From Halichondria panicea (Eukaryota > Porifera > Demospongiae > Suberitida > Halichondriidae): a DNA stretch of 64,000 nucleotides. The notes beneath the pieces were generated by a model. It worked only from the letters and a program-made list of their open reading frames with translations, did no database searches and was not told the DNA's origin. Position 1 is the stretch's first letter, and every line of letters starts with the position of its first letter. Where the stretch lies: positions 5,573,182 through 5,637,181 of the forward strand of contig NC_087384.1 of the NCBI RefSeq assembly GCF_963675165.1, in the 5' to 3' direction. The position numbers were made by a program, and so were the translations under genes. Below are positions 1-61,361 of this stretch, piece after piece.

Positions 1-301
1 TTGTTGTGTTGGCCTCGATTAAACCGCAGCGTAGCGCGGATGTTACTCGAGATACCAACCGTTTCCTATGAGTCCCTCTAACTCTTCAATCTGGTAGCAT
101 CAAATGAAGTATGATGATGTCTGCAGCATGCATTACAATGCCATTATTTTATGAGAAATCAATTCTGCTATACACTAGTAACAGTTTATAGTAGACACAG
201 ATCATGATGATGTCATGCATCACTATACAATGAGAATCCCACATGAAGCAGGATGTGATTCTATACTAGTGGCTCTGTGTGATTCTATATAGATCTAGCG
301 C

Positions 302-359
302 TAGCCTCGATTCAAGGCCGATTAAAATACGTATTTTAATCGGCCTTGAATCGAGGCTA
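302..359. repeat. Perfect 58-bp palindrome (MITE terminus back to back)
   Basis: Two 29-base arms meet at position 330/331 with no loop. The outer edge reads TAGCCTCGATTCAAGGCCGA. The same AGCCTCG...GGCC terminal motif occurs at 5224-5303, 18842-18941, 31775-31855, 41364-41463, 46523-46550 and 61825-61855. This is therefore a solo or end-to-end copy of a local inverted-repeat element family. No coding content. Confidence 0.85.
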
Positions 360-389
360 ATCTAGCACTATATACTCTGTGTAAACTGG

Positions 390-1725: not shown

Positions 1726-1920
1726 AGATAATTTCCTGGCTTGTGATAGGTAGATGTACTGAGACCTAGCTCTCGGATAAATAGACTGGTCTGGTACAAG
1801 AGGTGCAGAAGTATAGATCTATACAGACCTACTAGACTGGAAGTTCTCAATTTTTTCTTTAAATCAGTCTGTGATTGTTAATAATCGAATTTGCATTAGA
1901 TCTATACCTGAATAGAGAAT

Positions 1921-3155
1921 GCCATCAGGAGGAGGCAGTGCAGGAGGAGGTTGTGGTGGAGGAGGAGGAGGGGGATTCAGCAGTGACACTCACAGTTTAA
2001 GCCATCACGCACATTAGTAGTGACAGTGACGACGACAGTGGTGCAGTGGGCTTTGGAATTTTTATCGGGGTCATATCTACATTAGGCGTTTTGCTCATTT
2101 GTGGCATAATAATTGGTGTTGCGATAGGACTAAATAAGGCAGGCGAGTCCATGGACAATTCAGATGACGATTTAGATTCTACTGTTACTATTTCCACTGA
2201 CTTCTACTCACCAGGGGATAGTCGACTGCTGTCTCTATCCTCGTTCTTTTGCGATGGTGGTTCTCTTGAGCTCTCGTCCAATTCAGTTGATGCTGAACTG
2301 TTTCTTATCGACGACACGAGTATACCGGCCCTGAATGACACTAATCAATTTACTGTTTCTATCGAGTCGACAATTGATTCAACGGAGTTTCGATTCTGGC
2401 AGTATCATCTTCATCCCAACTCTAACATATCAGTCTCTGTATATATGTACCGATCTGTTGGTTGATCTCTACATTGTGAAAGGCAATAATAATGCAAACA
2501 GTTGGGCTAGTAACCCTAGCCAAGATTTGGCTGAGATGTTCCAATATGCACCTGCCTGTTGTAATGATTTACAGAATACATCGACCATTTCATATCGAGT
2601 CGAGCAAGAAGATGAGTACTATGTAATTTTACACAATTCACTCTCAATGGAGATTATTTTGAGCGCTTCTTTATACTTTGAGAGAACAGAATACAGTGTC
2701 CCTGACCTAAGCTCTAAGGAATCGTGTTTTGTCAGTGAACAAGGAAATTGCCTAGTAGGCATTGACTATAGCACTGGGTCTCAACAATTCTTGGTGATCA
2801 CATCCATTCCCGAGCGTGTGGACTGGGGTGAGAACGTCGGAGTTTCACTAATTTGTGACCAGAGAGGATGGGCCTATGCAGTTGTTATCTTGGTGACCAT
2901 TTCTGTAATAATCATCCTTGTTGTAGCTGCCGTGGTGTTGGGGATTGTCTGTTATTATAAGTGCTGTATACTACCTCCAAATCAGCAAACATCGAATTGC
3001 CTTGGAGTGACTTCAACCCTGACCCTCCTCCAAATAACTCTGGAAATGTGCACACGATTGCGAGTGATTTCGACCCTGACCCTCCGACCAACAATTCAAG
3101 AAGTGTTGACAAGATTGACCCAGACTTCAACCCGGATTATCTTCCTGAGAACTAA
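1921..3155 (+). pseudogene. Broken copy of the Gly-rich two-TM membrane protein gene (family copy 1)
   Basis: Same family as the genes at 6793, 14749 and 36582. It begins with the shared MPSGGGSAGGG start and then meets a TAG stop after about 31 codons. It reopens at about 2046 with the first membrane segment and the ectodomain. An insertion near 2441 (extra bases in the SVCTDLLV region) shifts the frame. The ectodomain and second membrane segment continue to about 2960, where a further one-base shift moves the DPDPPPNN tail into a third frame, ending PDYLPEN-stop at 3155. One nonsense plus two frameshifts make this a pseudogene. It still matches the intact copies closely, so the inactivation looks recent or the sequence has been homogenised by gene conversion. 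Confidence 0.85.
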
Positions 3156-4040
3156 TCTAGTTTGTGTGATGTACATGTGCATGTATATATATATATAGCT
3201 TCACAACCTGGTTAAATGCAGATTCAGTCAGTTTTGTCTCACTTTGCTTTTATTTTTAACAAATTAACACTTTTTTTAATATGCATGGGGTGTTTGAGAG
3301 TACAAGCTTGAGTTAATTCCGTGACTCAGTCTGCAAGTTGCCAAATACTATTATCAAGTGCAAAGACAATAATTATGTATTATAGTGACAGAGCCATTAT
3401 ATTTAGCAGGTATATATATCGATGCGTGCATGGGTAGAAGAATATCAGACACGCATGCACCCCACCCTATAGACTATGGCTTGCATGTATGCATATATAC
3501 TCCTTTTCACTTCACATACATGTATATACATGCGCACCAGAATAGTTATACTGCTCAGAGGGCAAAATATAGCCCATCTATATAATAGCCATGCAATTAC
3601 GCTGGCCCTGTTGATGGACATAATTATGTTTCTAATCTACATGGTGTATACGTAGTCAATGCTTACTCCAAGTGGCTGGATCTCCAAATCGCTACTATAA
3701 CCAAGCAAACTCTGATCCAGAACCACAATTTCTATCCTCCAATCGATATTTTTCACCGGGCTCACGGCATAAAGGTTAAAAAAAGTTTTATTTTACAAGA
3801 GTCTCGCCTGTCTCCTTGCATCCAAGAGAGATGATCCCCCTATACAACTCCACTATTGTATGTCCTGGCTGAGATGTCGCCTCACCTTAACTGTCTCCCT
3901 GTTGAGCAATTTGCTGCATCAGGGGAGCATGCTCGCACCCGGGATGTTTCATTAAACCTCCGGTAGACCTCGTGAGTTCTGAATGTGGCCTCATTGTGTG
4001 ACCCTCACAATGATTAGTGTGATTTTTGATCACATAATTA
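3156..4040. other. Intergenic; possible retroelement debris
   Basis: No intact gene. A short stretch at about 3640-3685 reads VYVVNAYSKWLDL in one frame, reminiscent of the VDAYSKW segment of Gypsy-type integrases. It is too short to call. The rest is AT-rich with TATATA runs. Confidence 0.35.
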
Positions 4041-4817
4041 TTTCGTCATGGCAATGTGGAAGAATACCTCCAAACTGCATGTAATGAACACATCACTGCA
4101 TTGAGGAATACCTATATGACTGCCCTGAGATATGGATGGTGTCCGCCAAACACTGCTACAAACTGTGTCTGTGGTGCAAACTTCACAATCGAACATGCTC
4201 TCTCCTGCCCACGAGGTGGATTCCCGTCGATACGCCATAACGAGATCAGAGATCTAACTGCCACCCTAATGACGGAAGTCTGCAATGATGTGTGTGTGGA
4301 ACCGGATCTTCAACCACTCTCCTCGGAGACCATGGCAAGACGTACCGCCATTACCACTGATATAACACCCGACTAGACATCGCGGCAAACGGCTTCTGGG
4401 GAGGAAGACTGGAGAGAACCTTCGTAGATGTCAGGGTGTTTAACCCCCACGCACCATTGAACAGGAACACGAGCCTGGAGCAGTGCTTCAGAAAACACAA
4501 AGTAGAGAAAAAAGAGCCTATGAGCAAAGAGTCAGGGAGGTGGAACATGCGTCCTTCACCCCCTTAGTGCTCTCCGCAAGTGGGGGACTAGGAAAAGAAG
4601 CAACAGTGTTCTATAAGATTGGCTTCCCTCCTAGCTGAGAAATGGGACCAACCATACCACCAGGTCATAAACTGGCTAAGATGCTCCTTATCATAATATA
4701 ATCTGCTCAGATCTGCAATACAATGTGTGCGAGGCTCCCGGTCCTCCCGTGGTCGCGCCATCAAGACCATCCCACCAATGGATTTGGTGTCGGCCGAGGC
4801 ACACTTATGCCAAATGG
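4041..4817 (+). pseudogene. Decayed C-terminal part of a reverse-transcriptase retroelement protein
   Basis: Three overlapping frames together read as one protein end. Frame one holds CVCGANFTIEHALSCPRGGF and HNEIRDLTATLM (about 4150-4275). The next holds ANGFWGGRLERTFVDVRVFN (about 4380-4445). Then come KEATVFYK, AEKWDQPY and LLRSAIQCVRGSRSS (about 4590-4760). I recall this order (Cys-His knuckle-like CPRGG, RLDIAxNGFWGG, KWDxPYxxxINWLRCxLS, RSxIQxxRGxRS) from the C-terminal ends of reverse-transcriptase ORFs in cnidarian and sponge genomes. At least two frameshifts and an internal stop make it dead. A second fragment of the same end is at 31864-32097. Exact element class not determined. Confidence 0.6.
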
Positions 4818-5223
4818 ACTAACAAGTATATTTTCCTTTTTCCTTTTTGTACTATTTTATTATTTATTTTGCCTAGATCAGTACTACATGTGTAACTTCA
4901 TTTGTTTAACAAAAAATATGACTGCAATGAGCACATAATTATCATTACATTAAGGAATACCTCTAGGAGACTGCAATGAACATGCACATCACTGCATTGA
5001 GGCTAGGGTTGCAAGCCCCCCACTTGGCTGGGGAAAGTACATTAATAATTTAAACAATGGGGGCGGGGAGATTGCAGGTTGTAAATTTTCTTGTTTTAAT
5101 TGTGAGTTTATATCTCATAAATTGAATAGTGTGACAGTGATGACGCACTTTAAGGAAAATGCGGTTCCACGTTTACACAGCAGTTCAACACTCTGGAGTA
5201 CATTAGGAGGAGTATCCAACTGT
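4818..5223. other. Intergenic, no gene seen
   Basis: AT-rich spacer with low-complexity T and A tracts. No reading frame with family-like sequence on either strand. Confidence 0.5.
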
Positions 5224-5303
5224 AGCCTCCTTCACCGGCCTTCATAGAAAAGAAGAGTGAAGTTCCCTGAGTAAAGTGCGGCCTGGGATCGAGGCTAATC
5301 TAT
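5224..5303. mobile_element. Short MITE, AGCCTC...GAGGCT termini
   Basis: Ends read AGCCTCCTTCACCGGCCTTC and GGCCTGGGATCGAGGCTA. The same two ends bracket the roughly 610-bp element at 41522-42135, so this is an internally deleted relative of that element. Confidence 0.6.
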
Positions 5304-5795
5304 AGCTAACTGTAGCTTTAAGTGTAAACCGCGTTAATTTTTACAGTATACAGGTATGTCATATCACGTCACTCTCAGACCGTTAAGGTACGTAAAGTGG
5401 TTAATTAATGATATTGGCAACCAAATGGAATAATCCCTACAAAGATGCCGACTATCGTTCTCTCTCCTCCAATCATCAATCTTATCATGTCCATTATAGA
5501 GGAGCAAGGTCCTCATGTGGGCTAACCCCTATAAAGCTGTGGACAACCTGGTAAACTCTGAATCTAACATTACAACATGAACTATTTTCACTTACTTTCT
5601 ACCATTGCATTATTATGTTCATCATAAAAATTATGATATCAGCACACACACGTGTGGTTTGTACCTTCAGCCCACATTTAATTTTATTCATGGCTGTTTA
5701 CACAATTACTACAACCAGGAGTGCATGAATTCGCACTCCTGCTACAACATGTATAGTATTAGTGACGTACATGTATTCAGTCCAGAGGAGGTCCG

Positions 5796-5928
5796 ACAGG
5801 CGCAGTGCAGCTCAAGTAATTAGCCTTTGATTACTCTCAGCAAAAATGTACGACGTGGGGAGGACGTGGGCGAACAATTATTGCTCAATTAAAGGCTAAT
5901 TGCTTGAGCTGCACCGCGTCTGCCAGAC
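5796..5928. mobile_element. MITE hairpin with about 33-bp arms (AATTAGCCTTTGATT family)
   Basis: Left arm runs from GCAGCTCAAGTAATTAGCC and right arm to GGCTAATTGCTTGAGCTGC, an inverted repeat flanking an approximately 65-bp centre. A second copy with one arm shortened is at 49466-49567. No coding capacity. Confidence 0.75.
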
Positions 5929-6792
5929 CTCTGTAACAGTCTAGATGTAGAATTGCATGTGCGTGGGAGTTGCTAATTTATTTATCTACTCTAAATATTA
6001 ATCTATATTCCTTAATGCAGTGATGTGTTCTACTCTTGATTATGAATAACCACAGGGGAAAGGTCACACATAGGCAATACAATCATGTATTGTTTACAAA
6101 GGTGCTCCCCACATATGATTATACTTGTCAGTTCTGGCTGCTAGAATTTACTAGATCTACAATGATAATTGTTGATGCTGCATGGAATAGCAGCCTTTTT
6201 ACAGTACATATATGCATTATAAATTTGTGAGTATATAAAATTAATGTTCGCAGTACATGCTTAATCAGTAAAAACCGCAAAATCACTAGTCCGGCTATAT
6301 CATGCATGCCAGAGGAGGTCACCGTCCGACATGTGCACGAAGTTGCATGTCATTGGCCTGGACGTTATCACATGACCGCAATGACATCAATGCACTGAAC
6401 TTGTAGTGATTCGTGCACACAAAAACTCTGTAGATCTATATAGTTATGCCATGTATGACATCAACATCAGATGATGATGTCATGCACCACTATACAATGC
6501 CATCATGACGTCAATAACACCGCCAACACTGAACTTTAAAGTTTATAGTTCACTGAGATCATATGATTTCCTGCGTGGCTTGTCACTGCATGTCAGTGAC
6601 AGCAGTCTTTTTATAAAAATCTGAATGTGAGACCTCCCTGATAAATCATACTTGTGCTTAAAGTATAGATCTACAGACTACTATAGCTGTGAGTCCTCCA
6701 ATTTTTGCTGGAATTTGATGTGAGTGTTTTATTTATATCTACAAAAATTAGTCAGTGATGTTCATTTTTTAATAGACCTACCTAAATAAAGA
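5929..6792. other. Upstream region of TM gene copy 2
   Basis: No gene. The last 250 bases resemble those before copies 1, 3 and 4 (AAAGTATAGATCTAC..., then TTTGCTGGAATTTG about 80-100 bases before the ATG). This conserved block likely carries the promoter or 5' leader shared by the family. I could not identify a TATA box with confidence. Confidence 0.4.
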
Positions 6793-7980
6793 ATGCCGTC
6801 AGGAGGAGGCAGTGCAGGAGGAGGTGGTGGTGGAGGAGGAGGAGGCTTTGGTGGAGAAGGGGAGGGATTCAGCAGTGACACTCCCAGTTCAAGCCGTTAC
6901 TCGAGTAGTACCTACACAACATCCCGGAGTAGTGACAAGGATTCTAGCTGTGGGATGTGCATTGGAGTTGTTGTCGGGGTCGTAGTTACATTATTTGTTT
7001 TATTTGTTTTGGGCATGATTATTGGGCTTAGTGTTGCAGCAAATTCGACAGGCGAGTCCAATGATGATGATTCTACTGTTACTATTTCCACTGACTTCTA
7101 CTCACCAGGGGATAGTCGACTTCTGTCTCTATCCTCGTTCTTTTGCGATGGTGGTTCTCTTGAGCTCTCATCCAATTCAGTTGATGCTGAACTGTTTCTT
7201 ATCGATGACACGAGTATACCGGCCCTGAATGACACTAATCAATTTACTGTTTCTATCGAGTCGACAATTGATTCAACGGAGTTTCGATTCTGGCAGTATC
7301 ATCTTTATCCGAACTCCAACATATCAGTCTCTGTATGCACAGATCTGTTGGTTGATGTATACATTGTGAAAGGCAATGATAATGCAAACAGTTGGGCTAA
7401 TAACCCTAGCCAAGATTTGGCTGAGATGTTCCAATATGCACCTGCCTGTTGTAATGATTTGCCGAATACATCTACCATTTCATATCGAGTCGAGCAAGAA
7501 GATGAGTACTATGTCATTTTACACAATTCACTCTCAATGGAGATCTCTGTGAACGCTTCTTTATATTTTGAGAGAACAGAATACAGTGCCCCTGACTTAA
7601 ACTCCAAGGATTCGTGTAATGTCAGTGAACAAGGAAATTGCCTAGTAGGCATTGACTATAGCACTGGGTCTCAACAATTCTTGGTTATCACCTCCATCCC
7701 CGAGCGTGTGGACTGGGGTGAGAACGTCAGAGTTTCGCTAATTTGTGACCAGAGAGGATGGGCCTATGCAGTTGTTATCTTGGTGCCCATTTCTGTAATA
7801 TTCGCCCTTATTGTAGCAGTGGCGTTGGGAATTGTCTGTTGTTGCAAATGCAGTACTACTACCGAATCAGCAAACATCGAAATGCCTCGAAGTGATTTCC
7901 CTCCGACCAACAATTCAGGAAGTGCTGACAAGATTGACCCGGACTTCAACCCGGATTATCTACCGGAGAACAAATTTTAA
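6793..7980 (+). CDS. Gly-rich two-TM membrane protein (family copy 2, intact, 395 aa)
   Basis: Single-exon gene; I do not recognise the family. Residues 4-24 are almost pure Gly and 26-50 are Ser/Thr-rich. A hydrophobic segment follows at about 56-82. Then comes an ectodomain of about 240 residues with paired Cys (SFFCDGG at 116-121, CC at 219-220, SCN and GNC near 274-283) and many N-x-S/T sites (NDT, NIS, NTS, NAS, NVS). A second hydrophobic segment lies at 324-351 and ends in CCCKC. The short tail repeats the DPDFNPDYLPEN type motif. The likely topology is N and C termini in the cytosol with an exposed glycosylated loop, by inference only. Homologues sit at 1921 (broken), 14749 and 36582. 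The ectodomains are far more alike than the Ser/Thr linker and tails. The ATG is chosen because all four copies share MPSGGGSAGG there. Confidence 0.85.
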   Translation: MPSGGGSAGGGGGGGGGGFGGEGEGFSSDTPSSSRYSSSTYTTSRSSDKDSSCGMCIGVVVGVVVTLFVLFVLGMIIGLSVAANSTGESNDDDSTVTISTDFYSPGDSRLLSLSSFFCDGGSLELSSNSVDAELFLIDDTSIPALNDTNQFTVSIESTIDSTEFRFWQYHLYPNSNISVSVCTDLLVDVYIVKGNDNANSWANNPSQDLAEMFQYAPACCNDLPNTSTISYRVEQEDEYYVILHNSLSMEISVNASLYFERTEYSAPDLNSKDSCNVSEQGNCLVGIDYSTGSQQFLVITSIPERVDWGENVRVSLICDQRGWAYAVVILVPISVIFALIVAVALGIVCCCKCSTTTESANIEMPRSDFPPTNNSGSADKIDPDFNPDYLPENKF

Positions 7981-8247
7981 TATTATTTTATTGTAGATCT
8001 AAATTTTAATATTATTATTTTATTGTAGATCTAGCTAGGCGTCTATGTGTGTGATTTGTATGCTAGCTACGTACGGCCCGGTAAAACAGGTGTACAATTT
8101 CAATTTTCAAACCTCAGTTTGCCATCAAACTATTGACAGTATAAGATTGTGTGGTAATGGTAGTTTTACTGATTTTACAATTAGATCTACTTGTAAGCCA
8201 CCTAGTCTGTGGGGGACCCCTACCCAGTATTTATTAGACAGGACAGC

Positions 8248-11200
8248 ATGCAGCCAAAGGTGCTCCTAAACGCACTAAAAACAAGCTCATTTGTCCGTTT
8301 GGTGGTTGCTACACGTCTAAAGCACTCCTCTACGGACCCTCTGGAAGATGTGCTGCCTCAGAAGTGGACAGAGTTAGGAGAGCGCATACAGAAACAGGTG
8401 ATAGCCACGGGGTATGAGCATCTCCTGGCCAGACGGGCATGTGTGAAGGAGAGCCTGGCCAAGAGAGGCATGGAGACCGATATTGTGGACCAACTGGTGA
8501 GGGAGACGTGCTGTGTGTGTAGACTCACAAACTGATAAAGATAAAAATTGTTCAGCAATTGTAGTTATCATAGATTTATTAGTGGTGGGGAGACCACTTG
8601 GAGACCATGAATATCATTAGGGACCTGGGGGGTACAGGGAGGAGCTAGAGTGGGGGATAGGGGGAAAGAGTTGAGTAAAAAGGAAAATAGAAAAATAGAG
8701 TCGGGGATAGTGGTTAACAGTGGAACCTACGTATTAATAATTTTTATAACGAACACAATTAAGTTTTGGCTGTTACAGAGAGGTGTCCATAGTTAATTGA
8801 GAGGTTTGATTATCCTCCACATGATATAGATTGTGCCCAAAAATGCATATTCAGTAATAATTTTCATTGGCTAAAAGCTGTTCAGGGAGCAGAATGCTGG
8901 TCGTTTTACGGAAAGCGAGGTTGCCGTTCTTCAGGGGTCGTCTATACAGTAAATACATGTGGCTGCAATCCAGACCTTATTTTTCGGACCTGATAGTTGC
9001 TATTCACGGGTGGTCGTCAAGCGGAGTTCCACTGTACATGTATATCAATTTGACTCGAATCTATTATCGTATATCAGGTTAGAATACGAGGTTCTTTCGA
9101 TTGCAAATTTTCGATAGCAATCAGGCTTGTACAGTGCCATTCGCATCGATTAACCTCTCATTCGAAACCCTGGTACTTCTTGCGAAGAAAACAACAGTTT
9201 ATTTCATTCGCAATTGTTCTTCCATAGTTAAAGACGCTAGAGAGGCACAACCTCATTGTTGAGCGTGTGAAATCCCTGGACAAAGAGAGAAAGAATAACC
9301 ATGAGACATTCAATGCAGCCCAGGTGAAGTTGCCTTAATTGTACAGTACGTGTTACTGGTCAGCGAAACTTGCCACTGAAACCATTAGCATCTGCAATAA
9401 TGCTACCTTTTGAAACAACCCAACAATTACCCAGCCCAGTACTGTCCACGCAATACTCAGATCTCTCAATTGAGGCCACAAAGAATGTTTACACTCTATA
9501 TTATGCACTTGATACTACACATTTTAGACACCTGTTGTTGGTCACTGTGTACAGCTTTCGCTATGATTAACTATCCACAGAGTGAAGAAGAAAAGTCACT
9601 GGCTAAGGACAGAGGTGTTCAACTCAAACGAGACATTGCAAAATTTGAGGTAAACATAATAGTGCCAAGTGCTTGGTGTATGCAATCCCATTGGCATGGT
9701 ACCATCTACATTTGTCACTATGGCGTAACTTGCGGTAACATTATGACAGCTTCTTAATGCAGTGAATCCTTGGGTAGACCAACGGTGATTCAAATATAGG
9801 GCCGTTGGTGGCCTGCAAGCGTAAGTCAAAACACATGCTCCAGCATGGAGACTTTGGGGCCCATTAACCAGGCTGTATTATAGAGGCTGGGTGACATGCT
9901 TAATAGGGTGACAAGGTTTCACTGTATAGGTGTATAAAAAATCTGCTTCACTTTAAAGGTTACTCTATTTTTTTCTCTCCAGGAAGAAAGACGAGAGTTG
10001 AAAGACAAGATGATGCCAGTCCTCACTCAGCTCCCGAACGAAGTACATCCGCACACAGTATGGACTGTATTTTTTGAAGTGTGTCTATCATTATAAAGAT
10101 TCCTCTTTTTGCAGCCAGTGGGAGGCTATAAAGATTCGAGAGTGGTAGAGGAGCATGGACAAAAGAGAAGTGAGTTGCATTGCACGTAGAATTGCATGCT
10201 GTTATGTAAAATAACTAATTGTCATCCCATAATTGCAGAGTTCAGTTTTCCTGTAAAGAGTCATATTGAGATAGGGAATCAGCTGGATTTGTATGATTAC
10301 AGGTACTGTAACCTTTTGTATCTTACTTTCAGCTTCACTATAATGACTTATAACATACTTCAATTGTTTGTACTGTAGAGGTTCTTCTAGTGCCTCTGTG
10401 AATGGGTTCTGTAACCTTTTGTATCTTACTTTCAGCTTCACTATAATGACTTATAACATACTTCAATTGTTTGTACTGTAGAGGTTCTTCTAGTGCCTCT
10501 GTGAATGGGTTCTGTAACCTTTTGTATCTTACTTTCAGCTTCACTATAATGACTTATAACATACTTCAATTGTTTGTACTGTAGAGGTTCTTCTAGTGCC
10601 TCTGTGAATGGGTTGTGTAACCTTTTGTATCTTACTTTCAGCTTCACTATAATGACTTATAACATACTTCAATTGTTTGTACTGTAGAGGTTCTTCTAGT
10701 GCCTCTGTGAATGGGTTCTGTAACCTTTTGTATCTTACTTTCAGCTTCACTATAATGACTTATAACATACTTCAATTGTTTGTACTGTAGAGGTTCTTCT
10801 AGTGCCTCTGTGAATGGGTTCTGTAACCTTTTGTATCTTACTTTCAGCTTTACTATAATGACTTATAACATACTTCAATTGTTTGTACTGTAGAGGTTCT
10901 TCTAGTGCCTCTGTGAATGGGTTCTGCTATCTTAAGGGTGCAGCTGCAATGCTGGAGATGGCTCTGGTACAGTTTGCTTTACAAACTGCCGTATCCAAGG
11001 TAGCCTACATACTTTAATTAAGTGGTGTTGTCTAAAAAATTTCTGAAAGCCTTCATCACATGCACTGAGAAGTACGTATACTGAGGCCATATTGACTATG
11101 CTGCTCTATATTGCTAACTATAATTATTAGTTTAGTTTAGTTTGGGCTGTCCAAACCTTTTACCAGCAATCACTTCGTAATCTTCACTAACATTGCGTAC

Positions 11201-48825: not shown

Positions 48826-50397
48826 CATAATAATGAAACTTCAAGCATCTCTTGGATACTTATATAGAAGCTATAATTATAGTCATAATAATTATACAAC
48901 AGTTACTGTTCTGACAAACTTGTCCAGGTATAGCTACCTGCAGTGAAGAAATAAAGGAAGGGCATCATAGCAATTATAAATACACCATAAAGTTTAAGCA
49001 AAAACAAAACTTGGTATAATTATATAGTTTCATGAATCAGCCGCACCTCTTAGAGAGGAGGAACGTCTGAGCACCCTCTACGTGAAAACATGGCACAATG
49101 GAATGTATTACAATTAATGTACACTGCATGTACACGCTGGTGAACCATAAAAATGTGTATAACCGTGCCAAAACATGCATGTGCTCACTGCTCAACCGCA
49201 CGTATACAGTTTGCTGCCTTCTATTCAAGTCAAATGATACTTGTGAGCAATCTCATTGGTTACGTTGGAAATCCACCATGGCCCATAAGTTCACGTAACT
49301 GTTCTAACTGCATATTCTGAGGCGCTATAGGCACAAGTGACTGTGAGAGCAATTTTGACTGTCTCCATTGATGTTCAAATGACTATTTTACTGATTTTGC
49401 AGTAAATAAATCAGTTGTTGACTGGGTTGCCTAGTAATTATGGTTTATAACTAACCTTAATCTAAATTAGCCTTTGATTGAACAATAATTATCCGCGCAT
49501 ACCCTGCCCACGTCGTATGTTTTTGCTGAGAGTAATCAAAGGCTAATTACTTGAGCTGCACCGCGCCTGCATGTCGGACATCCTCTGGGATTGTACCATT
49601 CAGACTCTGTTGAAAACATTGGTGCACGTGATGCGTTTCCAATCCCTGTCCTTTACAATGTACTATCTATGGTTTAACAATATGATTGCTATACCTGCTA
49701 CATCAAGACAGGAGTTAAAAAACGAAGGCAAGTGCAGCAACAACTCGATGTTTGTGACTAATCTAAGTTTCTGGCTCATTGCTTCTTATGTTAGAGTAAA
49801 ATATATCAATTATCAGACAGAACGTATAATCAGACAGCTGCCGGAAGAGAACGAATGGGCGAAACAAAGCTGATTTTTCACCCGGCAATATAGGTCTACC
49901 TATTAACAACATAACCTCCAAAAATGATAGCCCAATTCTAAAATATGCATGAAATAATTATACACCAAAATGTTGTGGTGTCTGATATATTGAAAATTAA
50001 ACATAATATCAGACATGCACAGGAACCTACGAATCACTGAAGAGGCAGAGCCACAAGATTAAAGGTGCTTTTGATAGCTAAAAGACTCCTCTTCCACATA
50101 TCACAAAACAAAAAAGCATCCTACGCATGACAACAGCAGTTACAAAACCACTAACAGCACTACACAAATATCAGACAGTGCATGGGTATATAGACGACAT
50201 AGGTCATGCTCATATACACACTCACAAGACCTTTTATCATATGATATGCAAGAATGTTTGTGTGTGAATGGTAGATTCTATTATAATTAATGGTTTAGGG
50301 TCATGAATGGTGTACCAGAGTCTCTCAGCATCCATAACACTCCTGGAGATTAACTTGCTGATTCTGCACAAAAGTATCAGTCAGAGGAATTGACAAT
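48826..50397. other. Intergenic left of the large transposon; one MITE
   Basis: No gene with recognisable features. The MITE of the AATTAGCCTTTGATT family lies at 49466-49567. A 100-codon frame at 49571-49873 begins right at the MITE edge and has no family-like features, so I do not call it. Confidence 0.5.
49466..49567. mobile_element. MITE hairpin (AATTAGCCTTTGATT family)
   Basis: Second copy of the 5796-5928 element. Arms AATTAGCCTTTGATT and AATCAAAGGCTAATT flank a 60-base centre, and GAGCTGCACCGCG follows on the right. Confidence 0.7.
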
Positions 50398-50430
50398 CAC
50401 ATTCACTGTTAAAAGTTCCCTTTCTCTTTT
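50398..50430 (+). repeat. Left terminal inverted repeat
   Basis: Begins CACATTCACTGTTAAAAGTT and ends TTTCTCTTTT. It differs from the complement of the right TIR at one base (position 50420, C versus T). Confidence 0.9.
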
Positions 50431-50648
50431 GCAGGATCAGAATAGAATTCACTGTTTTATTAGTTAAGTGAAACAAAAATTGTTTGATTTTTTGTCTATT
50501 TGTAAATCTTATCTGCATTGTTATGTTATTGTTGTATTCCATGGTTGTGTTAACTTGTTTTTATTGACTCTGTTTAGCATACTAGATTTGGAGAAGCTAA
50601 CAGAGATATATTTTGTATCACGATAAACAGAATGAAATATACACAACA

Positions 50649-53600
50649 TTAGGTGTTACTTTGCTTTAGCTCTTGGTATACACTCTTTAAATGTTCTATT
50701 GTCTTTTTACGTAGATGACCGGTGGACGTCAACTGGAAATCGTACAAGAGTATTGAGGATTTCGTGACTGAATCTTCCCACTCAATTCGCTTCCTCTTGT
50801 TTTCTGGATCCTGTCTTCTTGCCACTTTCCATTTGCTGTTGTACTTCCCTTCCATCCAGACAACTCCTACCTCTGAATCTGAGATTGATCGAAGTTGAGC
50901 AATCCATGGCTCGATGTTACTGCTTGGACAGCTTCTGACTGCCAGCAACTGATCAATCTTGAGACCTGCTAAATCCTGCACCTCCCTAACGTCTGTCCGT
51001 GATTGCTTTCGGTAGGCCCCAGTGTACACCTGTATGACATTGAATTTGAAGGTAGATACCATGTGAACAAAGCAACCTAAATTTAGGAAGCCTACTCAGT
51101 GACCTAAATTTAGGGATGGTATAATTTGTGTGTGTGCATGCACACATTGACCTAAATTTAGGGAATTGTGTGTATATACTTATGCATTACGTATATACCT
51201 AAGTTGAAGAATTATGCAAAGTGACCTAAATTTAGGTTATTATAAATTTAGGGAAAGTGCAATAGGTGTGCTGAACTGTCGTATAATTATTGCTTACATT
51301 GCACTCTTCATTCTCTGCAGCAAATAGAGCTTGAAGCTGGGTATTCTGAGGCGCATCACAGCTCATATCTGCTGATCCTGAGGCTGGGAGTTGGGCCAGT
51401 TGACGAACTGTGTAATAATTATTAGAATATAAGTGATATACGTAATGTAAAGTATTATTATGGTGTTACGTATATAATTCTGATTGAAATGAGAGTTTGC
51501 TCACCTTCTTGGAGATGTAGCAAGGGCCAGGGGGTAATTCCAAATTCATCATCAGAGTAGACAGCGTCCATATCAAATTGCTCCCACCAAATACGAGCAT
51601 CATCAGAGATCCAAGAATAAAACTTTGGAATATCTATGTGTAGACGTGGCAGGTCTATCTTGTTGTCAGACAGGTGAACTCTATTTGGAATGCCACATGG
51701 AATCTCCTGCACAGTACATTTTGCATGTAAAGTTAAAAGCGTGTAATTTGATCTATACGAATGCATGAGCTTAATTTATAGCCATAAGAGGTGTAGGTCG
51801 ATAAATACATTGTCCATTTTTGTTACAGTAAAATGCACGAATCAGTAAAAATTTAACCCTCAAAAATGTTACGCTATATAGTGCAAAATCCAAATTTTTA
51901 TGAACATAATAGGCACATTAATTTTTTAAAGAATTCAAGAATCGAATGGGTGTATTATCAGGGCCTAGAGAGCTGTAGAATATACTTATGGTTCGAACTT
52001 CAGCGTCTGTAAAAAACTGCTATTAATTATTATAACAACTGCATATACCCTAACACAAAGTGTGTTGCCATACATAATGTAGTATGCATGTGCTTGTACG
52101 GTATTTATTATGATCACTGACAAAAAAAACGTTATTACATGCGGACTTGCCAGAAGTAGTTTCACTGCTACATCAGCATTGCACCAAGCATCACTGCTCC
52201 AATGCCGAAAATACATCACAGCTTTCCCATCTTCTAAAAAGAATTTGAAGCAATGTGGAAGAGAGTGACCATTTAGTCCGTCAATACAAGGTTCCAGCCA
52301 CGACCTCACATCAGAAACAGTATTGAGTACCTCAACCGTTGGGGTAGGTGTGCTTGACTGTGTAATCTGCTTTTGGAGATCTGTACAATTATACATGCAA
52401 CAATAATTATGTAATGTCACAATCAATTCAAAACCAACCTTAATAAATTTATAGGAAGTATAATTATAGCTATAATTATAATTGACCACCATGCATAATA
52501 CCTACATACTACATGTATAATTATGAATGCATAATTATTACCTGGTAAAGATTCAGCTCCTTTTAGAGTGAGCTGCTTAGATATCCTTGAGAAAAGCTGG
52601 TCAATGTCCTCATGAGTATGACCAACAGGTAGGAAGTTTACCCGCACCTATTATAGCACAATGTATACAGTGTCATATGCATGCATGGGCAACCATGCAT
52701 TGACAATGTGTGCATGAATGATTATAATTATAGTCATTAGGGCAGGGCAGTGCATGCAGTTGCTATGTAATAATTACTATAATGATACCTTAGTGAATAT
52801 CTTCCGTTCTACCAACAATGCACAAAACCCCAGGAAGAACTTGTTTTTGTTTTCTTTTGCTGTATTGTCCAGTTGGATGTTGAGAACTGGTGGGAGATGA
52901 TCTAGAGCAATCAAGGATTTGAGCAGCACATGAATCGTAACATTGCAGTCATGAGGGAATTGCAGCATGTCAATGTAGACGTGAGCTAACTTTCCATGAG
53001 GTGCCCGGGTGTGTACTAGCACTCCAGTGACGTGTGTTCTGAGAGGAAGCAATCCCTGCACAGACTTTGGGATCTTTGCGAGGCGAGGAAGATTGGTCTT
53101 GTGCTGATCCATGCCATCAATGATGATGGTAACACTGTGTTGTGGATTTGTTCTAGATTTTTCCCGATGACCATAATACTTCCGCCTTTCTTGCCTGTCA
53201 CCATAATAATAATAGCAAGATGGAATAAAATTCGTATGCATATAATTGTGAGTCCCATGCACCCATGCATAATTACGTTTTGGACGTATAATTATGCACA
53301 TGGGACGAGTAATTTAGGTACATTTTATTGCTGTCTGACTAAAGGCAAAGAATTAATTGCGTGGAAATGTAATGTGTACTCGAATACAAGGTAAAGGCTT
53401 GCAGAGTCACTTACTGAACAATCTGTAGATGTTGATCATACTCCTCCTTAAATCTACACCTCCATCCACTCTTCATTCTTTCCTGGTCAAACTTAGTGCA
53501 AATATCACACTTGCTGAAAGCGCTTTGCTGTAAATTGGATAATTATATGGTTATGGTTATATAATAATAGTATAATAGAATTAATACTTACACTGGGAAT

Positions 53601-54812
53601 GAGCACCTTCGAAAAATCTTCTTTCCAAAAGCGGTAAAAGGTAGAAACTTTCACAACAGCATCTTCTGGGATTCCTCCAGCCATGAGCTCCCTCTTCATC
53701 CTGACGTACACATCGTACTTAGTGAGGAAATGAGGAAGGTGTACACGATCGATGTTAGGCATCTGATCTCCAATGAGATTAAAGTATTGCCTCATCCAAG
53801 TCTTGGCTTCAGACATTTTTGAGGCCTCGGCTCTCACGTGGGGTTTTCTAGTGGCTTTGTGAATGCCATTTGAGAATTGTTCGGTTACTGTTTTGAATCT
53901 CTTGTTTGAAATTCCAAGAATATTCAAGAAGGCGTTCTTGCATACATGCTTTCCTTCGAGCATCATCGTAAGCTTGCTTGAGCTCGATGATTGTCTGCTT
54001 GACGAGGGAATAAATATCAATGAGGTATCAAACAGAAACTGTTTCTGGTCAGCTCTTCTCTTTTTGTTAAAGATACCTCTAACTTTCTGTACTTCCTGCT
54101 GAGTAAATGCAGCAATACACACCCTTCCACAACATTGAAACCGATGAGAGCTTACAGGAGATTCACTCTCATATTCCAAAGGATCTTCTGTCCTTCGCTT
54201 CTTGACAGGTGTTGAATTCAAAGGAGCTTCAAATTGGGGATCAAAATCCATGAGTTCGAGTAGTTCGGAGTCAGCATCACAGTTAGTGAAGCTGGAGGAC
54301 ACAAACAACTCTTGGCTGCTGTCTACAACAGGAGATAAGAGCAGAGAGTTTTGCGTGTTGGTAGTCATGCTTGTCTCTGGAGACACAATAAGAAGGGAGT
54401 CTTGCGCTATGCTTGTTTCGAGTTCTGGTGACACAAAGAGGAGGGAGTCTTGCGCTATGCTTGTTTCGAGTTCTGGAGACACAATGAGGAGAGAGTCTTG
54501 CGCTATGCTTGTTTCGAGTTCTGGAGACACAATAAGGAGAGAGTCCTGCGCTATGCTTGTTTCGAGTTCTAGTTCTGGAGACACAATGAGGAGAGAGTCT
54601 TGCACTATGCTTGTTTCGAGTTCTGGAGACACAATGAGGAGAGAGTCTTGCTTGTTGTTAGCTATGCTAGCAGGAGTGCATGCACCCCTGATGCTAGTTT
54701 GTGAGTCTTGCTTACTGCTTGTCCCTGGTGACACAATAAGGAGAGAGTCTTGGCTATAACTGCCATCATAGAGAGGACATGAATCATTCATCATTGCATG
54801 CATGCAAGCCAC
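50649..54812 (-). CDS. Putative RNase H-fold transposase, 8 exons, 926 aa
   Basis: Exons: 54812-53592, 53527-53415, 53194-52789, 52647-52542, 52380-52139, 51706-51505, 51407-51298, 51029-50649. Phases join to 927 codons including TAA. The N-terminal 160 residues contain a 16-residue tandem repeat (QDSLLIVSPELETSIA). Next come a Cys pair region (FQCCGRVCIAAF) and a HVCKNAFLNILGIS helix resembling the DNA-binding part of this family. The core has three acidic motifs spaced like an RNase H fold: IIIDGMDQHK (Asp471/474), IQLDNTAKEN (Asp554) and VGHTHEDIDQLFS (Glu593/Asp594). I recall GHTHEDID and the WxxxYxxxW C-terminal tail from uncharacterised animal and plant proteins labelled DUF7869, but cannot check. 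It lies head to head with the ParB/methyltransferase-like gene. The exon 5 donor (CAT|GTAATA) is the least certain boundary. Confidence 0.75.
51076..51253. promoter_or_regulatory. Left cluster of CCTAAATTTAGG palindromes
   Basis: Perfect 12-bp palindromes at 51076-51087, 51103-51114, 51151-51162 and 51225-51236, and a half-degraded one at 51244. The fuller consensus is TGACCTAAATTTAGGG. They lie in the last intron of the transposase-like gene, about 0.7-0.85 kb from the left TIR. Candidate binding sites for an element-encoded protein. Confidence 0.75.
54395..54770 (-). repeat. 48-bp tandem repeat coding 16-residue units
   Basis: About seven units in the first exon of the transposase-like gene, each encoding QDSLLIVSPELETSIA with small changes (one has a 6-base ELEL extension). 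Units are nearly identical at DNA level (CTTGTTTCGAGTTCTGG recurs), so the array is young. Acidic, Ser-rich, probably unstructured. Confidence 0.9.
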
Positions 54813-54984
54813 AAATCATGCGCACTGAACTATCACACCTGCGGGTTCACGCATGGCTACTTTATTGCGCATGCGCCGATGGACTAGCACTATTCAGCTG
54901 CATTTAAAACTGCACTGCACTGCGCTGCACTTAGTAGTACGTGCTTAGCTACTGTAGCTCCCTAGTTTACAGCATAGGTGAAGA
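54813..54984. promoter_or_regulatory. 172-bp bidirectional promoter with NRF1-like site
   Basis: Separates the divergent ATGs at 54812 (-) and 54985 (+). It contains TGCGCATGCGCC at 54866-54877, matching the palindromic NRF1/alpha-Pal consensus common at animal bidirectional promoters, then TTTAAAA-like sequence and a GCACTGCACTGC run. Shared control would give co-expression of the two element genes. Confidence 0.7.
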
Positions 54985-57900
54985 ATGCCTGCAACCAAGA
55001 GGTGGCACTTTGAGTTTCTCGTGGGTGGAGTCAGTGGTATCACTGTGTACAAGAATGGTGCAAGGATTAAGAGCTACAAACTCCCAAATCGCCCAGTCTT
55101 GGAAAGTGTATATTCAATAGGTACTCCTTCTACTAGAAAGACTTGTGATAAGGTTAAAGAATACCTAGATCAAGCCATTGAGGTAAGCTATAATGTATAA
55201 CAATGTTGTAATTTTAGTAATAAGCACCACAGATATAATCCTGGTTTTTATTGGTCATACAGGTCACATTTAAATGCAAGACTACTGTGCTCCTGAACCG
55301 GAAGGAGTTTGAATGGAATAAATCAGCATTTTGTCGACTGTTGAGGCTGTCTCCTGGGGCGAGAGGAGCAGTCGACTTCATTCAAGTCTTCAACCAACTG
55401 ACAAAGGTATCATAATAATGTGTCTTGCCCATTTCTGCGTGATTGCTAAGGTGTACAACAGTTGATACAGTCCCTGTTTTTACATAGGAATAATGGGGGG
55501 GGGGTCATATAGATCCTTGTGATAGGGAAAATGTAATAATTGATGTACAATGCGTTTTCATGTACATCACTTGTTTACATACATTGTACATAAAATTAAC
55601 ATAATAATAACTCTATATAATTATAAAGTTTACTTAATAATTATAGTATAGAGTTCATGTATGATCGCTAACCCACCAATATAATTATAACCGTTCAAAT
55701 TGCTGTCTGCATGCATGCTTATAATATTATATACCCATGCATGCATCATGCGTGGGAAAACAGTTGAACATACAATCAGTGCATGGCAATCAATGTTTGT
55801 ACGTGTGAATTCTATATCTTGACATCATGCACTGTATACAAACCTCGTGTTTATAATCTACACTAGCTAACCTGATAAGGTGTTAAAATTGTTACAGCAG
55901 CTATATGTATGTACATATTCTTACTTTATCTACAGTTCAATTCTGACCGAGGCTTCTTAGTTCCTGTAAGCCCCCTGCCAACCAGTTCGGAGTTGCTAAC
56001 TGAGGAGGCGTTGTCTGATGGTGGTGACTCTGAGGATGACCACCCGCTGTCTTCATTGACAAGTACCCAAAGCATAGACGGCAGCCACCAACTTGGAGAA
56101 AAGAGAAGTCAGCAGGAGGAGGAAGTATCGAGAAAGAGGATGAAGCACAAAGATACTATGGACGATGCGATCTTCACCAAGAAGATTGGTAAGCTGCATG
56201 TGTGCCAACTGTATCACACATGCAATTTCAACCTTGCTTGCGCATGCGCACCAAGGCACAATTGAACTTCTCTCACTTGATATTGTATATGCATGCATGC
56301 AGGAACTATTGATCTCCAGCTGAGAAACCTCTCAGAACCCAAAACACAACGCTGTTTAAGAACGGTTGACACTGTATTTGTGGAGGAACTAGTGAAGAAG
56401 TTCACTAAGGATCCCTCTGCTCCAGGTGTACCTCCGATTGCTGTTCTGTGCATTTCTGTTGAGAGCATAGATGTGTTTGACACCAACAGAGTGGACGCCT
56501 ATAAGTACGAGCTGCTTGGAGGCCAGCATACAGCCTTGGCAAGAAGGATAGTAGCAGCCAAGTCTCCAGACAATACGTTGCTACAGACTGTCCTTGCTGA
56601 GGTGTATGTTGGTCTGACAGACGATGAAGCACTTAGGCTCGCCTCTCGCCACAACACAAATAGTCATTTTATCCACAAGATGACACATCGGGACTATGTA
56701 AGTTAAAGAATTCAAAATTCCTCTAAGAAATAAGCTGTGTTCATTCATTTTGCTATGATTATAGCTTGAGGCCTGCCGATCGAAACTGTTTTCAATGTGC
56801 GGTAAGGCTCCTGAGGAGGAAACCCCAAAAGACTCGGTGGAATGGAAGGATGTGTGCAAGCGATGCATTTTACCTCAGGTATTATACTATTTCGTCTGTT
56901 AATATACATTGTACTTTACAGAACTGATCCATGCATGCTCATAATATTTGTCCAAATCTTAGGATATGGGCCGCTGCACAATGGAGAATATCTTTAAGCA
57001 GGCAAGCTTTACTAAGGAAGTCTGGGCATTGGCCGTATCGGTCATGAACTTGTACGAGGAGGGGGAGCTGAAAGACCAGACCCTCTCAACAAAATCTCTG
57101 ACTACAAAGCCCGAGTTTAAGCAGCAAAATTTTAGCCCAATCCAGTGCCTTCCTGATGAGTTCAAGCTGGAAATGTTATCAAAGGTATACAAGCGCTTGA
57201 GAAGATTTTCTATAGACAAAATAATATTGTTACGTGTAAAAAAGCACATGCAGAGGTATAATATAGGAGCCTGACAGCGTAATCTATTTATATCTGCATT
57301 GAAGTTGTTATGAATTAATAGTAATAGTTTTTTAGATCATGTTTGCCTGCAATCTGATAGGCTATAGAGGAAGTGTTCTATCCAACTTAGTATACTTACC
57401 GTATAGCGCGAATTTTCGAGGCACTTATATTTCGTGGATTGGCCTCTAAAAACCATTTCGTTGCACAATGTTCGCGGAATGACTGCTTACGGGAAGCCAC
57501 GCCTTTAAATATTTGCACGATAGCAGGTAATTCTAATTAAAGAACAATTTTCGTGGACTTAATTTTCGTATAGAATTCTAACCCACGAAATCCGCGAAAA
57601 TTAAGCCCCTCGAACATTTCGCGCTATACGGTATTTACTTCACTTATGTAGCAAAGATTAGATAAGAATAGTGCATGATTGACTAAATTGAGAATCATGG
57701 TTGCTATATTATGCATGATCTATAATCAGGGCTAGTAGAACCCTCTCTACACGTTCGGGATACTACAACCATGCAGCTCTAAATATTAATTATTAATTTT
57801 CCAGGTTTCAAGCAGTGAGCTAAGCCTTGCCGAATTAAAGGAAGAAGCTACCAGCTACAGATCAAGAAAGTCTCTGCAAAGGGCTTTCTGCAAGTAAATT

Positions 57901-59951
57901 AACAATCACATGCATGCATTTGTATAGACACTGTTTAGGAAGTTTCTAGAAGCCCAATTAAAGGGCTGGTAATTGTAGTATCCCGAGGGTTCTACTAGCC
58001 CTGACTCGTGAGGACTTCTAAATCATGTGGAAACTTCCTTTTTTTGATCTAAAGTGTATTATTTCTATAATCACATTTTTTAAGTCAAGTATAATTCCAT
58101 CCCAGGATAACTACTTCCAGTACGTGGTGCGAGGCAAAACGTAGATTTCCTGCCTTCACTACCCCAGAGCGTCTGAGGACATTCCACCAGATATGTTTAA
58201 CCAAAACAATACCGGCGTCTTTTCGTTCATATTGTGAGGCAGCTCTAAAAGCAGAAAAATCAGGCAGCACAGACAACACTGTTGTCCCCTCGGCTGATAT
58301 ATATAAGTTCAGGCACTGCAAGGCTTATGTGGTCGAAGGGGATGCAGCAAACATGTGCTGCCAAGATGTTAGGGATGTCTACCCTACATTCATGGGCTCA
58401 AATCTCTTCCTGGCTGACATACCCGTGGTATAATTATGTGCATGCATGCACGTACAGCTATAACACATGTATATGTTATAGCTACGTATATAAACACTCC
58501 TGATATTATACTTACATGTTGTTCAACTTCGTGCAGGCGTGGACAACAGAACAAATTCAAAGCCTTGTGTACACCACAAAACAGCTGAATACAATACCCG
58601 AGAAAACTGTGAGCACATTTAATGTTGCATTGATTAGCACCAGTCTCTCAAAAATTGAAGAACTGAAGAATTGTTTGTTGAAGTGCTACGAACACGTCAG
58701 TGTGTGCTACTGGCAGACAGGGTGCACAGGTAAACTATGTTCAATAATAATTCATCGACATTGTACATTTAACAACTTGTGTCACACGGTGTGTGCAAAT
58801 CCATCGGTTTTTCGCCTCCGCTATAATTATACACTCAAAATAACAACGCTATAAATATTTCGCATGACTGTATATAATATTTATCGTGTAACAACTGTAT
58901 AATAGCGTGAACTTTTTCGAGGTGCTTAATTTTTCCTGATTTCGTGGGTTAGCAATCCTACTAATTATCTGCTGTAACTCGCAAAGATTTAAGGTGTGGC
59001 TTCTGGTAAGCACGAACATTGTGCAACGAATTGCTTTTAGAGGCCTTTACAAAATATATAAGCACCTCGAACATTTCGCACTATTATGTACACATGCAGC
59101 CTATTATATCGTACATAACTATAAGCATAATAATTATTATACAGCCCATAACATTATTGTTATAGGTGGCTTAGATTCCACTCATCCACTGGGATTTATC
59201 CCATCAATTGGATGTGTGGTAGTGGGACACTACTCACTCAGTGGAAAGCTGGAGGAGGACCACTTTAACTTCGTTGAGGAAGGGCGGTCCAATTTCTTCC
59301 CCTGTATTGATCAATCCACTGCTAAGATTCCGATTTGTGTGCTGACAGGCATTATAAAGAAGCTGTCTTTTGAAGGGAGCACTGTTATTGATGCCACAAG
59401 TGAATCTGGTAATTATTATAGGATGACAGTGCATGCATGCATGATTACTATTTTATGTTTTAGATACCCAGCATGATTGTGATGTACAAACAACTATGGA
59501 CCACCTGCCATGATAGTCAGATAGTTTCGGCCTTGTTGGGCCTCGTCAGCATAGCGTAGTTGTATATATGTAATGAGTACATGTAATAAGATTACATGCA
59601 TAATAATTATTATATACATGCACATACATGTAATTATCATGTGTATAATAGTGCATGGGAATGTATCCATGCATGCACATGTACACAAGTAGAGTTCATG
59701 TATGCATGCAGTTTACCTAAATTTAGGTATTATTATAATGCAACTGTCTCTAAATTTAGGTACAACGTACAAAGTTAATGGTACATGTATACCTAAATTT
59801 AGGTAGAATTGCATAACACATCGTTTCATGCATGCATGCAGGTAACTGTGCAATTGCCTCACTACAAGCAGGAAGAGATGTGGTGGTACTCAAGGCATTG
59901 GCCCAAGCAGCACTTGCAAGAAGCCAGCTTGCAGAACTGTCAACAACATAG
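54985..59951 (+). CDS. ParB-like plus degenerate DNA amino-methyltransferase-like protein, 11 exons, 760 aa
   Basis: Exons: 54985-55182, 55263-55406, 55936-56188, 56303-56697, 56765-56878, 56963-57184, 57805-57893, 58106-58427, 58537-58729, 59166-59408, 59842-59951. Phases join exactly to 761 codons. Residues 1-114 are an unrecognised domain. Residues 130-190 are acidic and charged, with a KRSQQEEEVSRKRMKHK basic stretch, a possible nuclear signal. Residues 245-330 resemble the ParB/sulfiredoxin fold: a VLCISVESI strand, ELLGGQHTALARRIV in place of the usual DGHHR motif, then EVYVGLTDDEALRLASRHN. Residues 560-760 follow the beta-class N4/N6 methyltransferase order: VVEGDA, then motif IV position LFLADIPV (579), a mid-region, then motif I position STVIDATSESGN (715-726) and LQAGRDVVVL. 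DPPY is replaced by DIPV and FxGxG by TSESG, so catalysis is doubtful. ParB-methyltransferase pairings are known in phages and bacteria. The eukaryotic form here is intron-rich and TIR-bounded. Confidence 0.72.
57396..57635. mobile_element. MITE, TACCGTATAGCGCGAA family, in intron 6
   Basis: Ends TACCGTATAGCGCGAATTTT and AACATTTCGCGCTATACGGT. Inserted in the ParB/methyltransferase-like gene intron. Closely matches 62010-62247 in inverted orientation. Confidence 0.85.
58900..59095. mobile_element. Decayed MITE of the same family, in intron 9
   Basis: Ends TATAATAGCGTGAACTTTTT and AACATTTCGCACTATTATG. The interior (AGATTTAAGGTGTGGCTTC, AACATTGTGCAACGAATTG) aligns with 62120-62190. Older than the copy at 57396. 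Confidence 0.75.
59716..59803. promoter_or_regulatory. Right cluster of CCTAAATTTAGG palindromes
   Basis: Sites at 59716-59727 and 59792-59803 are perfect; 59750-59760 (CTAAATTTAGG) lacks the first C. They lie in the last intron of the ParB/methyltransferase-like gene, about 0.4-0.5 kb from the right TIR, mirroring the left cluster. I noticed no perfect copy elsewhere in the window. Confidence 0.75.
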
Positions 59952-60182
59952 CTAGCTATGGACTAGACTATACTATACTGTTTCAAGCGTTCCGTTAACT
60001 TCTATGTTACTTTGTATATGCGGAGTATACGACTCGATCTTCATCTTATTGAATGTTCATCTGGTTAAGCAAGTCAATGGGTATCAATAGAAAATAATTG
60101 GTGTTCTCTAATCTTTGAGAAATTAACAGGGATATTAAACTAAAAAAAATGATTATGAACAAAAAACATAGCATATTAAAAT

Positions 60183-60215
60183 AAAAGAGAAAAGGAACTT
60201 TTAACAGTGAATGTG
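60183..60215 (-). repeat. Right terminal inverted repeat
   Basis: Reads AAAAGAGAAAAGGAACTTTT...GAATGTG, complement of 50398-50430 with one mismatch. A shorter TTTTAACAGTGAAT string also occurs at about 19340 and 43447, possibly unrelated. Confidence 0.9.
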
Positions 60216-61361
60216 TTCGACAGCATTTCTAGCTAGGATCACAGATAACTAACATACTTCCATATAGAGATGTGCTCTCACATTATAACTATCATAATCA
60301 TACAAACAGCATCTCACTTCACTGCCACATGTTTTATTTGAAACTCAAGAACCAGCTTGAGCTAGCTGAAGCAACAACTTGATCTAGATATAGTATCTAT
60401 ATATATACCAGTTCTCCAAGGTCTTGTAGTCAAAGAGAGATCAATCCAGTACCCAAGGACGAGGACACAAGTGTATCAAAGCAAGACAGCTATACATCAT
60501 TTATATAGCCAGGAGTATATACTCCTGATATAGTACCCACATGCAAGTCATTTGTTATACACTATTATTATAGTATAGCTTAATAAAGGTTATCTTCATC
60601 TTTTTACACAGGGAGCTCGTCTACATGTCTATGCCAGTGGATGACAATTCTTGATGTGATACACGTACTGAATAATTCTTTGTCGAATTATTACTATAAT
60701 AGCTATGAATGTATTCATCCAGGCTGATGAGAATGTGGATACAAACATGAAGATCCCATGACAAGCCCCATGAAGTCAGCAGATGCATGGTATCCGTCAG
60801 ACTGCTTCAGCAAATTACGAGTGACTTTGAAATAGATTTACAGCTTAGATGCATTCTATATGTACGTTATATTGTTTTTTTCTTGTGACATACGTGTACT
60901 CTATACTGTTTCATCACTGCTAATATCTTTATTGATCAGATGATTGTGTAATTGTTAAATGCATGGCATGCATATAGGCATGCTTTGGCATGTAAGGCTA
61001 GCACACTAAGGGTATTACTTTACATTCATTATGTGCAGTAGAGTGCACCACAGCAGTGTCCCTGAACACCCTTAAAATGGGTTAGATAACACATCATCAT
61101 AGGTATGTTTTTTACCACACTTTGTGTGTGTAAAACTTAAACAGTCATACCAACACATGAAAAATGTGTAAAGTAGCACGTCATTTTTAACAGTGTATAC
61201 TTGTGGCGCCTAAGAAGACATAGTCATAGATTGACAGCCATATACATTTCCAGCACACACTCCCAATTATAGAAAACTATATTATGGGCCATATTAAGTC
61301 GGTTGCACTGGTATAGAGCCATAATTATAAACTGTGTATGACAACACTGGAACCTATATCT
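60216..61361. other. Intergenic right of the transposon, no gene seen
   Basis: AT-rich. At 61055-61200 short related segments (CTGAACACCCTTAAAATGGG and ACGTCATTTTTAACAGTG) suggest an old repeat. No supported coding region. Confidence 0.5.

Follow-up and report, generated by a model that had tools for sequence, protein, structure and literature searches.

A sponge DNA transposon with head-to-head genes for a DUF7869 transposase and a ParB-methyltransferase-like protein, and family-specific motif arrays near both ends

CACTA/EnSpm transposons encode two proteins, of which TnpD is the transposase and TnpA binds subterminal repeats. ParB and KorB read palindromic sites, and ParB carries a DNA-reading helix-turn-helix after its core. 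In the brown alga Ectocarpus, the element Sola1-1_Ec32 carries a ParB-methyltransferase gene on the strand opposite its Sola1 transposase (PMC12477816, Genome Biol 2025). The available text of that article also cites similar ParB-methyltransferase proteins from green and red algal transposons, and its authors suggest self-binding and self-methylation. According to the accessible parts of two further articles, Sola elements have a DDD transposase and 4-bp target duplications (AT-rich in amoebozoan Sola2) and are mostly 2-9 kb long (PMC10741241, PMC3627910), and according to those of another, Bacillus cereus has a ParB-adenine methylase fusion (PMC5512222). Here, we describe a DNA transposon of the sponge Halichondria panicea with 35-bp terminal inverted repeats (TIRs) and two head-to-head spliced genes, gene A for a DUF7869 transposase and gene B for a ParB-like and methyltransferase-like protein. 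It occupies positions 50396-60217 of a 64,000-nucleotide stretch of contig NC_087384.1, which was analyzed at its full length and is called the window below.

The sponge element resembles CACTA/EnSpm in encoding two proteins, in short motifs that recur near both ends and in short target duplications. It differs from CACTA/EnSpm in that A matches DUF7869 alone in Pfam, in its ParB-methyltransferase partner and in its terminus; EnSpm/CACTA termini begin with CAC, whereas the element terminus is AACAC and the duplication lies outside the AA. The combination of an accessory protein with family-specific motif arrays recalls VANDAL21 and its VANC protein, but the proteins are unrelated and VANDAL21 is Mutator-like. 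With bacterial ParB, Noc and KorB, B shares the predicted ParB N-domain fold; unlike these and the ParB-methylase fusions, it is eukaryotic, intron-bearing and transposon-encoded, with an apparently degenerate methyltransferase. Sola1-1_Ec32 is likewise a DNA transposon with a ParB-like and DNA methyltransferase gene opposite the transposase; it differs in its brown algal host, its length of 21.5 kb and its 1104-aa protein with predicted N4C or N6A activity, and the available text mentions no subterminal arrays (PMC12477816). The sponge element shares a predicted DDD triad and the 4-bp duplication with Sola, to which it is likened by description alone. Both features fit Sola membership, with the 2-bp duplication of a related family, F4, as a caution. 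The preliminary description, made from the window's letters, knew of no described superfamily with this gene pair. We found no animal case of ParB with a transposon or with methylation among the matches listed, in the open-access literature and in a few subscription papers, and no paper in the open-access literature searched names DUF7869; the partner type, however, has been reported in Ectocarpus Sola1. Because such partners are already known from algal transposons, the sponge element is not new in kind.

The inverted repeat had been described as 33 bp with one mismatch (50398-50430 versus 60183-60215), and it was found as such. Comparison of copies moved both termini 2 bp outward to AACAC..GTGTT, although the window's left end reads AT. 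The TIRs enclose two head-to-head spliced genes as described, and distances of 219 and 231 bases between stop codons and TIRs follow from the coordinates. All introns of both genes are GT-AG and the spliced readings contain no stops, the exons being predicted from DNA alone. The terminal and central features are as follows.

50396..50430, plus strand: left TIR, 35 bp; other full copies start AACACATTCACTG, the window copy ATCACATTC
60183..60217, minus strand: right TIR
50392..50395: left copy of the 4-bp target duplication GACA, read by eye
60219..60222: right copy of GACA, read by eye; one extra base, 60218, separates it from the terminus
54804..54984: 181-bp interval between the start codons of A and B, presumably a divergent promoter

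In the 131-Mb genome (39 contigs), the 22-bp TIR core gave 14 exact and 10 near matches, and its reversed control gave none. Eight of the 14 exact matches formed four correctly oriented pairs spaced 8.5-11.2 kb apart. All eight two-ended copies examined, from the window's family (F1) and a second family (F2), were flanked by 4-bp target duplications read by eye, the window's with its extra base. With the terminus set at AACAC..GTGTT, the four other two-ended F1 copies carried AAGA, ATAG, ATAT and AAAG, the last belonging to a 2.9-kb derivative with a few inserted bases at its right terminus. TIRs, fixed-length target duplications and several dispersed copies are the marks of an RNase H-fold DNA transposon, and the search for further copies suggested earlier showed the TIRs recurring at unrelated sites with target duplications.

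Gene A was read as follows.

50649..54803, minus strand: gene A, DUF7869 transposase, 923 aa, 8 exons, predicted splicing
54803-53592, 53527-53415, 53194-52789, 52647-52542, 52380-52139, 51706-51505, 51407-51298 and 51029-50649, minus strand: exons of gene A
52139..53194, minus strand: exons of gene A with the RNase H-like core, DGMDQ (D468), LDNT (D551) and GHTHEDID (D593)

DUF7869 was the sole match of A in a Pfam scan at E values up to 5, and kinship with KDZ or DIRS elements, which the preliminary description mentioned, found no support. The three acidic motifs lie at residues 468, 550 and 586, in the RNase H-fold order noted at that time. A homologue, P0004, was modelled with an integrase/transposase RNase H fold and a DDD triad (predicted fold, VIA-align); D345 is invariant and D429 and D471 are at least 90% conserved among 89 sequences. 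Prediction on the homologue thus indicates a DDE/DDD integrase-transposase core in A. This assignment depends on VIA-align and not on whole-model Foldseek, which returned no match for A at E ≤0.001 (best E 0.013, an unrelated protein). Foldseek rows with probability 0.96-0.98 and E 0.045-0.14 only suggest a BAH-like C-terminal domain. The N-terminal part of the gene contains a 48-bp tandem repeat (about 16 residues, QDSLLIVSPELETSIA) at 54328-54752.

Gene B was read as follows.

54985..59951, plus strand: gene B, 760 aa, 11 exons, predicted splicing
56303..56697, plus strand: exon 4 of B, encoding most of a core that resembles the ParB N-domain and was modelled at residues 195-321
58106..59951, plus strand: exons 8-11 of B, beta-class methyltransferase-like half, with LADIPV replacing DPPY and DATSESGN at motif I, motifs read by eye

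The H. panicea database protein LOC135344519 agrees with the initial part of B except for one absent residue. The B core best matched CTP-bound ParB in Foldseek (E 1.2e-4), and fold prediction thereby bore out the ParB-like domain proposed at first; the predicted domain is the ParB N-domain, which binds CTP in ParB, Noc and KorB. This core is strongly conserved among relatives. In sequence searches, a Pfam scan at E values up to 5 found no family in B, DUF6551 matched weakly in 5 of 14 rows, and a search of the PDB with the ParB alignment found no match, the ParB of solved structures being visible through the fold search only. For the amino-methyltransferase domain that had been proposed, weak concordant matches cover one motif, motif I, near the C terminus (RsrI, E 0.69; a PHROG methyltransferase, E 0.001; PRK13699, E 0.017), but canonical DPPY is absent by eye, reading LADIPV in the window and differing again in F2, in a third family (F3) and in further relatives; by eye, motif I also lacks the usual FxGxG in the three families. 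These weak profile matches point, if faintly, to a degenerate methyltransferase half. Scans of viral contigs and of one genome per bacterial or archaeal species, with two peptide patterns per scan, gave pattern matches for relatives of B, of which tblastn confirmed none, and revealed no donor lineage. Structure prediction, proposed earlier as a check, gave ParB as the best match of the B core and an RNase H fold for the homologue of A.

The genome contains at least 32 A loci (DUF7869 exons clustered) and at least 21 B loci; the pairing count took in 34 of 69 B rows, and the omitted rows fall in the same loci. Twelve A loci have a B within 11 kb, all head-to-head, against a chance expectation of about 0.005 per A locus. 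A thirteenth pairing, at 14.4 kb with a B common to another A, is dubious. The pairs outside F1 are F2 (two copies), the F3 locus on C14, C1:8426k and C1:8311k. Over the aligned parts, identity to the window's proteins is 36-44% in F2 and F3, and the pair recurs in at least three diverged families. The F2 element (C1:8261165-8269411) has its own TIR, likewise beginning AACAC, in three exact pairs, two enclosing A and B and one being a 1715-bp derivative; exact 4-bp target duplications flank all three (TTAA, TACA and TAAC). The F3 genes carry frameshifts or stops, and no TIR was found in the 9.9 kb examined. A fourth family, F4 (C2:4682859-4686153), has a single gene, which encodes DUF7869. Its TIRs are perfect over 33 bp, the open frame runs for 683 residues to a CCHC-like motif at its end, derivatives are about 420 bp long, and the target duplications were read by eye as 2 bp at 6 of 6 sites. 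The preliminary description had asked whether other copies of either gene always occur alone; the pair recurs head-to-head in other families, though A lacks B at 19 of the 32 loci.

Short motifs are arrayed near both ends of the window element.

51076..51236: left array, four exact copies of the palindrome CCTAAATTTAGG, inside the last intron of A
59716..59803: right array, two exact copies of CCTAAATTTAGG and one with one mismatch, inside the last intron of B

In 200 dinucleotide shuffles, 12-bp palindromes never exceeded two copies. The genome-wide distribution of GACCTAAATTTAGG is a stronger control than the shuffles: all 26 matches lie in or beside element copies, including the relatives on C5 and C6, against two matches for the reversed control. 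The motif differs in F2 (GACCCACGTG type, 15 sites) and in the C14 region of F3 (TGTACAAATTTGTACA, 13 matches), and each of the three motifs is absent from elements of the other two families and from the rest of the window. Genome-wide, 35 of 40 matches to the F2 word fell within or close to F2 copies or TIR-like sites of F2, against 8 control matches. Among 23 matches to the F3 word (control, 0), 10 belonged to the C14 element, 2 lay next to another A-B pair and 11 were elsewhere. A motif-blind detector found arrays at both ends in all three A-plus-B families, with no mid-element copies, and no both-end array in F4, which has A alone, or in a short derivative of F4. F1 and F2 derivatives without most of both genes retain TIRs and arrays, and the C6 relative retains two perfect motif copies. 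This distribution suggests that movement requires the arrays and that these are linked to B.

The window element was aligned to 20 genome stretches. The second full copy, C8b (C8:3308879), is 98.9% identical over 9843 aligned columns, and its gene A has one stop in the scripted reading. Divergence from the window element is about 0.3-0.6% in C8b, C12 and the copy on C3, and is alike in coding and non-coding parts. C11 and C12 share an internal deletion of element positions 5177-6674, which removes B exons 3-6, and are 99.98-100% identical outside a 2.6-kb insert; high C11 substitution figures for B and non-coding parts were disregarded as alignment artefacts from this insert. These identities indicate very recent movement, also of a copy without the ParB exons of B, and B was thus either supplied in trans or dispensable. 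The alignment also showed a 2.9-kb derivative without most of both genes (C1:17483k), a copy continuing into an assembly gap (C1:9676k), and diverged relatives, two on C5 and one on C6 (about 65% alike in the aligned part). A further copy on C1 (~7048-7053 kb) is broken at element position 5591 by unrelated sequence. The C5 relatives (5158 kb and 5548 kb) are diverged (92%) and oppositely oriented; their outer flanks are identical and lie about 389 kb apart, which suggests an inverted segmental duplication. They have DUF7869, and B was not among the matches listed there. On C13, seven sites at 5504-5982 kb contain a repeated unit with TIR-like sequence 1-2 bases off the 22-bp core, and neighbours were unrelated in the six examined. 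These six, with about 20 bp in common and no element body, were not counted as copies, nor was a C9 site with no element body.

The C3 copy (~1891.8-1901.7 kb) is circularly permuted, in the order host, element 7810-9818, one base, element 1-7823, host. Its termini abut as GTGTT-G-AACAC, nearer together than would be expected had two elements inserted separately, each with its 4-bp duplication. Fourteen bases at both outer ends are element sequence. Paralogous empty sites (right flank; four fetched of six listed) lack this 14-mer and show a few host bases replaced, and a Campbell-type event or a host duplication was therefore rejected as the source of the 14-bp repeat. Left-side contiguity with the paralogues relies on about 17 bp. 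We infer that an excised circle or a longer head-to-tail molecule was joined into a break at C3, from a single case in which an assembly error is possible.

With moderate confidence, we favor B as a sequence-specific end-binding partner of transposase A that reads the arrays of its own family. A would cut and join the element ends. B would bind the own-family array, as ParB binds parS, and might spread as a clamp; bound B would mark both ends as own family and help A to assemble or choose ends. The methyltransferase half, having lost its canonical catalytic motif, may serve DNA or protein contact rather than methylation. B would act in trans, so that copies without ParB exons could still move. 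A ParB-fold protein would be a natural reader of such arrays, although array reading, CTP use and clamp spreading by B are inferred. Several observations weigh against an end-binding B. Besides the 19 A loci that lack B, 9 of 21 B loci have no A inside 15 kb, and 7 of the 12 pairs are F1 copies, three with truncated B. The C11/C12 derivative moved very recently without B exons 3-6. Shuffles understate natural repetition; another 12-bp palindrome occurs four times elsewhere in the window, and TGCATGCATGCA occurs five times scattered inside the element. The F2 motif is merely near-palindromic, 11 of the 23 F3 matches lie away from any A-B pair seen, and the contrast with A-only elements comes from one family, F4. 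B residues 317-429, in the part behind the ParB core where ParB has its helix-turn-helix, were modelled at low confidence, mostly below 50, and no B residue is tied to the motifs, which could equally be read by A. A broader proposal, which we regard as doubtful, is that a plasmid-partition module has become a eukaryotic end-recognition system, in which a transposon-encoded ParB-type nucleotide clamp would load at parS-like subterminal arrays, the arrays would co-diversify with the protein to give each family a private address, and excision with the DUF7869 transposase would pass through a circular intermediate.

B could instead be an anti-silencing or expression factor that binds own-family arrays and lifts host silencing, like VANC of Arabidopsis VANDAL, with no direct part in cutting or joining. 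Short array motifs differing by family are the VANC pattern, and F1 arrays sit in introns. We consider this role unlikely: the arrays are near both ends and none was found mid-element, where the start codons are, and their retention in derivatives without most of both genes fits movement better than expression. Less likely still, A itself would read the arrays and B would do something else, such as nick DNA as a ParB-type nuclease, act as a nucleotidase or help with repair after excision. Many transposases bind subterminal repeats, and A too differs between families. A Bacillus ParB-adenine methylase fusion is also reported, in the available text, to nick DNA (PMC5512222). Against this reading, the one DUF7869 family examined without B has no comparable array. 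That B is an active DNA methyltransferase marking element DNA, as proposed for the algal proteins, is improbable; the matches to motif I and the predicted N4C or N6A activity of the Ectocarpus relative (PMC12477816, available text) speak for it, and the DPPY and FxGxG positions, as read by eye in the three families and, for DPPY, further relatives, speak against it. Finally, although the C11/C12 derivative moved without ParB exons and A is found alone in other families, a chance passenger with no function for the element is hard to credit when B is kept head-to-head beside A in families with proteins only 36-44% alike and its ParB core is so strongly conserved.

Altogether, the results support the initial view that this is a DNA transposon of an animal, whose transposase has an RNase H fold and whose partner stems from a DNA clamp and a DNA methyltransferase. 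As a working guess, DUF7869 is a transposase family of animals and probably of other eukaryotes. ParB-methyltransferase accessory proteins, so far noted in algal transposons, are extended to animals, and the candidate binding sites supplied here would make the role of such accessories testable. Family-specific sites that track the partner gene would offer a clean natural system for studying how related transposons avoid cross-mobilization, and here a eukaryotic mobile element may have put a bacterial DNA-clamp module to use.
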